A stretch of 64,000 nt of DNA, from contig CACGWW010000001.1 of assembly GCA_902576905.1 (NCBI GenBank), positions 247,001 to 311,000 of the forward strand, read 5' to 3'. Position 1 is the stretch's first letter, and every line of letters starts with the position of its first letter. Source of the DNA: an uncultured Alphaproteobacteria bacterium (GTDB taxonomy: Bacteria > Pseudomonadota > Alphaproteobacteria > Rhodobacterales > Rhodobacteraceae). Of the stretch, positions 16,458 to 18,901 are shown piece by piece. The notes under the pieces are model-generated. The model was not told the DNA's origin. It did not search any database and saw nothing but the letters and a program-made list of their open reading frames with translations. The translations under genes and the position numbers were made by a program.

Positions 16458-18337
16458 ATGAGAGCAAAATCATTAACACCATAAATAGAAAAATAGCAGT
16501 TATTTTTGCCACTGACGTCGTTGGTTATAGCAAGCATATGGAAAAAAATGAGAATGAGTCAGTAAAAACTCTTCGCGCGTGCGAAAATATTCTTAAAGAT
16601 CTGTTCAAAAAATATGAAGGGCGTCTCTTTAATTCTGGTGGCGACTCTTTCTTTGCCGAATTCCCTAGTGCCGTATCAGCTGTTGAATGCGCATCTGAAT
16701 TCCAAGGACGTCTAAGAGAATTTTACTCTCAGAATAATCTTCCAATTAAGTTGCAATTTCGAGTTGGAATACATATGGGTGACGTAATAAAAGAGAAGCG
16801 AAATCTTCTTGGAGATGGCGTTAATATTGCAGCAAGACTAGAGGCCTTGGCTCAACCTTCAGGAGTAACGATTTCCAAGTCAATATTTGATTTAGTTAAA
16901 GGAAAAGTAAATTTACCCTTCAATGATCTTGGTTTACAAAAAGTCAAAGAAAATGAATTTCACGCCTATGATATTCTTTTGAGTAAATCGCAAAAACGAA
17001 CTCTAAGAACATTTTCAAATCCGATACTACGAAATTTAGGTATTGTAGCCTCTGTATTCGCAGTAGTAGTTATTGGAATTATTTTGTATCTCCAATCAGA
17101 TACAAAACCAGTAAGCAAAATTCAAATGATGCCAACGGATAAACCCTCAGTTTTGGTCATTCCATTTGAAAATCAAACTGGGAAATCTGATAATGACTTC
17201 ATAGGATTTGGAATAACAAGTAATATTATCTCTACCTTATCAATTAATGACTCAATATTGGTATCTTCCTCTAGCACTGGTAAATATGTTCAAGAGAAAA
17301 ATTTTTCTGATAGCGAGATATTAGAAAACTATGGCATTCAATATCTTTTAAGAGGAGATGTTCAGGGTGCTGAAGGAACCTATCGCGTTTCCTTACAAAT
17401 GACTGATCTCAAAAAGAGTGAGGTTGTATGGTCAAAACTTTTTGACTTTAAGGAGTTAAAGGAACTTTTTCCTGTTCAAGAAAAGATAAGTATAGCCATT
17501 TTGGAGCAGATGAGAGTTAAGACAAGCGGATCACAGTTAACCCAGAAAAATTATTTCACTAACCCAGAGGCGTATAGACATTTTCTCAATGCATGGGCTG
17601 CTTTTGACCTTAAAACGGTGGAGGGAAGTGAAAAAGCCGAAAAGCTATGGAAAAAGGCCATAGAGCTAGATCCAAACCACCGACGATTAAATTTTATGAT
17701 GGCATGGGTTCATTGGAGAAAAGTCACTATGAGAATGTCTGATGATCCCAAAAGAGATATGGAAAAGGCCTATTCTATTGCATTAAATACAATTGATGAG
17801 TTTCCTGATTGGGCAACGCCTAAAACTTTAGCAGGCATGATCGAATTATTTTTAAAAAAGTATGACAAAGCCTGTAGTAGAATACCCACATTGATAAAGG
17901 AAGTAAAAGATCTTTCAGATTTAGCCACAGCCAATATAGTTATTCACTCCTGTGGTAATCTAGGAGAAGCAATAGAAAACTATGAAAAAATAATGTTGTC
18001 GAATCCCCACCATGCGGCATGGATATTTTATATGTACAATCACGCTTTAATTGAAAATAAACAATATGAGAAATCTGAGAGCTTCGCTCTTATGAAATTA
18101 AATGAAAAGCATAATTGGAGTGGGGTTGACCAAACATTATATTTGCAGCTTGCTTATCTGTACGAGTTGAAGGGAAGTAAGAAGAAAGCAAAAAAAATGT
18201 TCGAGCTACATAAAGCCATCGACGGAAAGGGTAAAACAGGTGAGATTATTCATAAAGAATATATTACTGCGCGTGATAAAACATATCTAAACGAGTTAAT
18301 ATCTGCCCTCAAACCTTATGGGCTAACGGAAAAATAA
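16458..18337 (+). CDS. class III adenylate/guanylate cyclase with TM segment and TPR-rich C-terminus; apparent 1-nt indel near the start
   Basis: Catalytic INRKIAVIFATDVVGYS lies upstream of the listed ATG (16538); FNSGGDSFFAEF, GIHMGDV, GDGVNIAARLEALA. One extra A in 16466-16469 joins ATG 16458 in frame. Confidence 0.82.
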
Positions 18338-18361: not shown

Positions 18362-18389
18362 CTTGTAATTTTTTTTTTAGTACCCATCT
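18362..18389 (+). promoter_or_regulatory. candidate RpoH (sigma-32) promoter for hsp20
   Basis: CTTG (18362-18365) - 17 nt - CCCATCT (18383-18389), close to the alphaproteobacterial CTTG-N17/18-CYTATNT pattern. Confidence 0.55.
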
Positions 18390-18396
18390 GAAAAAT

Positions 18397-18418
18397 GTAG
18401 ACGCCTAATGGGGTCTAC
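18397..18418 (+). promoter_or_regulatory. 5'-UTR hairpin I upstream of hsp20
   Basis: GTAGAC-G-CC-TAAT-GG-G-GTCTAC: 8 bp with one internal G/G mismatch. Confidence 0.7.
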
Positions 18419-18426
18419 TCACATAA

Positions 18427-18447
18427 ATCTTGCTTAATAAAGGAGAT
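18427..18447 (+). promoter_or_regulatory. ROSE-like RNA thermometer hairpin sequestering the Shine-Dalgarno of hsp20
   Basis: AUCUUGCUU-AAUA-AAGGAGAU: 8 bp with a single bulged G (G18432) opposite the SD; UUGCU motif; ATG begins at 18452. Confidence 0.72.
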
Positions 18448-18451
18448 AATA

Positions 18452-18901
18452 ATGAATAGTTTAAGCACACTAAGAAGTGCCTTACAGGCATTTGACACTA
18501 ATACATTTTCACCCTTTGCCGTTGGTTTTGATAAGACGTTTGATCGCCTTTGGGATTACGCAGCGCACCAGAGTGACACTAATGTGGGGTTTCCCCATTA
18601 TAACATCGTGCAACACGATGATTATAAGTACACAATTGAAATGGCATTAGCCGGCTACAATAAATCTGATATAGACGTTGAACTAGCGGACGGCGTTTTG
18701 ACAATCAAATCAATGAAAACAGTTGAAGAGAGCGACAAAAAAGTCTATCGAGGTATCGCTTCCAGAAATTTTACTCGTAAATTCACTTTAGCCGACGACA
18801 TAATCGTTAAAGACGGGGCTTTAAAAGACGGAATGCTCTCAATTGAATTAGAGAGAGTAGTTCCAGAAGAAAAGAAGCCGCGTCTTATAAAAATTAAATA
18901 A
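18452..18901 (+). CDS. ibpA: Hsp20 / small heat shock protein
   Basis: Alpha-crystallin domain (YTIEMALAGYNKSDIDVELADGVLTIKS...YRGIASRNFTRKFTLADDI...GMLSIELERVVPEEKKPRLIKI). Confidence 0.92.
   Translation: MNSLSTLRSALQAFDTNTFSPFAVGFDKTFDRLWDYAAHQSDTNVGFPHYNIVQHDDYKYTIEMALAGYNKSDIDVELADGVLTIKSMKTVEESDKKVYRGIASRNFTRKFTLADDIIVKDGALKDGMLSIELERVVPEEKKPRLIKIK

Follow-up and report, generated by a model that had tools for sequence, protein, structure and literature searches.

The hsp20 gene in the window, the 64,000-nucleotide stretch of an uncultured Rhodobacteraceae genome analyzed here, very probably has an RpoH-dependent promoter and, downstream of it, a ROSE-type RNA thermometer; we infer promoter use, melting, and temperature control. 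Judged by its sequence, the element is of a known kind, a new and very AT-rich ROSE example that has diverged too far to be recognized by the curated RNA database. Conservation and covariation show, at the level of sequence, both the existence of the two-hairpin RNA and selection on it, whereas sequestration of the Shine-Dalgarno (SD) sequence is deduced from its pairing in the second hairpin. Under heat stress, RpoH levels would rise and hsp20 would be transcribed from CTTG-N17-CCCATCT. Of the two hairpins at the start of this mRNA, the first (hairpin I) would be stable and the second (hairpin II) labile; in hairpin II, UCUUGCUU would pair with the SD, leaving a bulged G and including a U.G pair. 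Hairpin II would block ribosome binding in the cool and open on warming, with hairpin I remaining folded, and Hsp20 would then be produced. Standard RNA annotation misses this element, which is part of a predicted module of heat-gated promoter and thermometer in uncultivated Alphaproteobacteria of the ocean (a habitat read from isolate names).

The hsp20 locus and its RpoH-type promoter

The window belongs to a draft genome of 1.69 Mb in 46 contigs, which we compared with 21 congeners. Its hsp20 gene (18452..18901, + strand) specifies an IbpA-like small heat shock protein of 149 aa with a Pfam HSP20 domain (PF00011, 63.9 bits, E 1.6e-17); the best NCBIfam model is IbpA, at 116 bits and under that model's cut-off. 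The ATG is at 18452, and AAGGAG stands 6 nt upstream of it. Orthologues are present in 17 of the 22 congeneric genomes (protein identity, 85 to 100%). The upstream neighbor, on the same strand at 16538-18337, encodes a protein with an adenylate/guanylate cyclase domain and TPR and ends 114 nt before hsp20.

An earlier note on this DNA, made from the letters alone, had proposed an RpoH-like promoter and two hairpins with a bulged G at 18432, and its coordinates for all of these were correct on rereading. The −35 element CTTG (18362..18365, + strand) occurs in 17/17 orthologues with a spacing of 17 nt to the −10 element (18 in one). The latter reads CCCATCT in the window (18383..18389, + strand) and CCCATNT, without exception, in the 17 orthologues, all of which have it 61 to 63 nt from the ATG. 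In divergent members, this invariance stands against an identity of about 0.6 in the spacer and 0.39 in the upstream flank. RpoH-family sigma factor genes, of which the window's genome has two copies, were found in 22/22 congeneric genomes. The region thus combines what defines an RpoH (sigma-32) promoter, i.e., CTTG, a spacer of about 17 nt, CCCATNT or CCTATNT, and an encoded cognate sigma factor, in line with what the note had read from a single sequence. The strict pattern occurs 13 times in the 1.69-Mb genome, versus 4 times for the reversed control. Only the matches of hsp20 and of one other locus (L054, 133 nt ahead of a 455-codon ORF) precede a sizeable ORF, the others lying mostly within or antisense to genes.

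A sister promoter, CTTG-N17-CCTATAT, is found in the dnaK leaders of the genus (L079-L093). Since CTTG-N17/18-CCTATAT promoters precede rpoH (L168, G000:C3) as well as dnaK, sequence suggests that RpoH may control its own gene. Upstream of groES (L062-L078), a conserved TTGACAAGCAAAAATTCTTGCATAAAT-like stretch precedes groESL in most of the genus; it is sigma-70-like, with an ACAAG..CTTG inverted repeat, and follows neither the CIRCE nor the RpoH pattern.

A covarying hairpin followed by an invariant one

Hairpin I (18397..18418, + strand) begins 7 nt past the −10 element and would lie at the mRNA 5′ end. The earlier note had its stem and place right but read a 1x1 G.G mismatch into it. Such an internal loop is possible in the window sequence only; the orthologues read GCC-N5-GGG, and therefore the shared form is GUAGAC-(bulged G18403)-CC-UAAUG-GG-GUCUAC, with loop UAAUG and a single bulged G18403. 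Orthologous leaders, on which the note had made its proposal depend, do hold compensatory changes in this hairpin. Five of its eight pairs have changes on both sides in the genus alignment, where the stem appears as GUAGAC/GUCUAC, GUGGGU/GCCUAC, GAAGGU/GCCUUC, and UCGAAC/GUUUGA. Paired cells amount to 99.2%, versus 95.8% in shuffled alignments (0/500), and slid controls all fall at 35 to 57%. Among 23 distinct sequences, another family included, 133/138 outer pairs are formed, compared with a mean of 84.5 after shuffling (0/20000). For these covariation counts we used the genus alignment and explicit parsing, because a MAFFT alignment of the two families had shifted hairpin I by one column.

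Hairpin II, the ROSE hairpin (18427..18447, + strand), has the form AUCUU-(bulged G18432)-CUU/AAUA/AAGGAGAU. Its arms, AUCUUGCUU at 18427-18435 and AAGGAGAU at 18440-18447, enclose the loop AAUA, and it ends 4 nt before the ATG. The predicted pairing sequesters the SD, AAGGAG (18440..18445, + strand), and places the bulged G18432 within UUGCU (18430-18434). The CUUGCUU/AAGGAG pairing with one bulged G, already recognized in the note, is borne out by the letters, and all 16 paired letters plus the bulged G are invariant in the 17 orthologues. As hairpin II never varies within the genus, it shows no covariation there. The sole change of this kind comes from a distant relative (L124), which has UCGCU for UUGCU, turning the U.G pair into C-G and supplying the alternative C of the U(U/C)GCU signature that the note had invoked. 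The bare core TTGCTT-N2-8-AAGGAG recurs about 5 times per genome, versus about 2 for the control, and the case for hairpin II therefore depends on its position, extended pairing, and conservation. The folding z-score of the leader is −3.3.

In the ViennaRNA model, the SD of the isolated leader is 92 to 95% paired at 10 to 25°C. Folding across temperatures, as proposed in the note, predicts that the isolated leader opens only gradually, from 0.92 paired at 25°C to 0.82 at 42°C, which counts against the thermometer.

Relation to known thermometers

The structure is that of a ROSE-type element, i.e., a heat shock gene leader (18397-18451) directly ahead of the hsp20 start, a U(U/C)GCU-SD pairing that leaves a bulged G, and a further stable 5′ hairpin, here hairpin I. 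The four consecutive U opposite the SD that define fourU thermometers are absent from the anti-SD, UCUUGCUU. A cmscan of 133 nt aligned all three Rfam ROSE models on the same strand and at the exact spot where the note had expected them. The matches cover the full models, with a bulged G in both hairpins, but scores of 27.5 bits for ROSE_3 (RF02523; E 3e-4), 21.7 for ROSE (RF00435), and 13.8 for ROSE_2 (RF01832) lie below the gathering thresholds of 43, 45, and 65, respectively. The element therefore falls short of ROSE_3 membership, and nothing in the whole window reaches an Rfam gathering threshold. By its sequence-derived structure the element is ROSE-type, but its scores are too low for the curated Rfam models to pick it up.

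Among the closest parallels is Pseudomonas ibpA, for which sigma-32 transcription and a two-hairpin ROSE in which hairpin II alone melts have been proven experimentally (Krajewski et al., PMC3669281). Both systems share a sigma-32-type promoter, just two hairpins, a U(U/C)GCU anti-SD with a bulged G, and an IbpA-type small heat shock protein. The description of the leader as a minimal variant was thus correct, yet this architecture is already known from ibpA (PMC3669281). Unlike ibpA, the window element is alphaproteobacterial and AT-rich, its hairpin II is mostly closed by A-U pairs, and its temperature response is predicted only. ROSE-like elements were later extended to ABC transporters (PMC11342760). 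In the ROSE-like thermometer of Providencia stuartii oppF, deleting the bulged G lowers heat induction (PMC11342760); the window shares with it a UUGCU/SD stem with a bulged G, but oppF is an ABC transporter gene, not a heat shock gene.

The RNA element in a second family

A second family (G044, L117-L123), whose Hsp20 is about 50% identical, keeps both hairpins. Its hairpin I stems differ (GUAUU/GAUAC, ACAUC/GAUGU), while it shares AAUCUUGCUU...AAAGGAGAU with the genus, and the anti-SD AAUCU(U/C)GCUU is kept even though the surrounding spacer changes. This family is without an RpoH-type promoter and instead has a sigma-70-like TTGACA-N17-TATATT upstream of hairpin I. Persistence of the RNA element under different transcriptional control supports, on sequence grounds, an independent posttranscriptional role for it. 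In some members, a TTGACA-TTA-TGTCAA palindrome lies upstream of hairpin I and is possibly a repressor site.

Alternative readings

The promoter of the second family raises the possibility that translation alone is heat controlled and that the hsp20 promoter of the window is not RpoH dependent. We consider this unlikely: CTTG and CCCATNT recur without change, at fixed spacing, in all 17 orthologues, and CTTG-N17-CCCATAT precedes hsp20 in yet another family (f98; L137, L139, L140). Conversely, transcription alone might respond to heat; the hairpins would then shield the 5′ end of the transcript, and the match between SD and anti-SD would be incidental. The location of hairpin I right at the predicted 5′ end would fit this reading, as would the proposal of Krajewski et al. 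that such a hairpin may stabilize the transcript (PMC3669281) and the abundance of the bare hairpin II core. However, the anti-SD arm is invariant in noncoding sequence and is kept across families and differing promoters, which makes purely transcriptional control very improbable.

Another reading retains ROSE but adds a built-in competitor. On warming, the anti-SD arm UGCUUAA (18431-18437) would swap to the complementary UUAAGCA in codons 4-6 (18461..18467, + strand), a candidate competing hairpin that would place both the SD and the start codon in an open loop; the first codons would thus capture the anti-SD, and the coding sequence would be selected for the switch. With 60 nt of coding sequence included in the fold, warming from 15 to 37°C lowers predicted SD pairing from 0.96 to 0.55 and raises that of the UGCUUAA/UUAAGCA hairpin from 0.01 to 0.40. 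Synonymous recodings show a mean drop in SD pairing of 0.09, and 0/400 (one run) or 0.7% (another) match the native drop, but the effect is weaker at other coding lengths (10% at 30 nt, 4 to 5% at 90 to 120 nt). In nine other congeners, 0 to 2% of recodings match the native sequence, versus 16 to 25% in the outgroup family. The competing fold is predicted in 17/17 orthologues, which as close kin are not independent tests, and the pairing is missing in the other family with the thermometer. Codons 4-6 are also the least synonymously variable triplet window (rank 1 of 147), but groEL of the genus likewise top-ranks start-proximal synonymous constraint, which weakens this conservation as proof of a coding-region switch. 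The switch itself appears in the folding model only, and because the groEL start shows the same constraint, we keep it as a possible but doubtful rival. A coding-region competitor would be the one possibly new feature, for which the modeled folds are suggestive. It would resemble the E. coli cspA-type leader (PMC4166951) in its mutually exclusive folds involving coding sequence, but cspA permits translation in the cold, whereas the competitor proposed for the window would release the SD as the temperature rises.

ROSE-type leaders in other lineages

The two-hairpin ROSE fold was searched for more widely with a covariance model (R1) built from genus sequences alone, which revealed it in several other AT-rich lineages. 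R1 matches 26/385 genomes of the class at E ≤0.05. Besides the window, the gene downstream of the match is hsp20 in 16 cases, rpoH in 4, and dnaK in 1; another four matches look like chance. The Rfam ROSE gathering threshold was reached by 0 of 20 loci scanned. Within the genus, the leaders of the second hsp20 (L043 and orthologues), groESL, dnaK, and rpoH have neither a ROSE element by inspection nor a convincing R1 match. Weaker R1 matches (15 to 20 bits) had been candidates for further genus copies; the five inspected, three orthologous ones at 19.8 bits and two at 18.6 bits, lie within other reading frames or at their ends, without a ROSE hairpin, and were rejected.

The rpoH matches concentrate in the order of G126, represented by a single family (f90) of 43 genomes. 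R1 matched 10 of these genomes, in nine directly ahead of rpoH, and NCBIfam confirmed the gene identity for three representatives. The U(U/C)GCU...AGGA motif stands ahead of the ATG in 27/30 rpoH loci examined in this order. Its ROSE-type two-hairpin rpoH leaders, in which hairpin I covaries and each hairpin has a bulged G, come from the set L170-L175, L177, L146, L147, and L178-L207, and folding yields two bulged hairpins in most rpoH leaders. Among these leaders, 23 distinct versions of hairpin I could be parsed, each with a single bulged nucleotide (G in 22, A in 1). Their outer pairs form in 115/115 cases, versus 88.9 when shuffled (0/5000); since choosing hairpins by parsing favors paired stems, it is this contrast and not the 100% that counts as evidence. 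If true, a ROSE element ahead of rpoH would bring the entire heat shock response of these organisms under the control of a ROSE thermometer. A search of literature that took in few subscription papers found no report of ROSE ahead of rpoH in Alphaproteobacteria. Bradyrhizobium has a heat shock gene cluster containing rpoH1.

Two more rpoH cases occur in other families (L138, L142). A single dnaK leader (L148:1501-1562, G213) is also ROSE-type, with AUAAUUUGCCU/AGGAGAUUAU, one bulged G, and a UGCC..GGGG hairpin I; it folds with a long SD hairpin that includes the bulged G.
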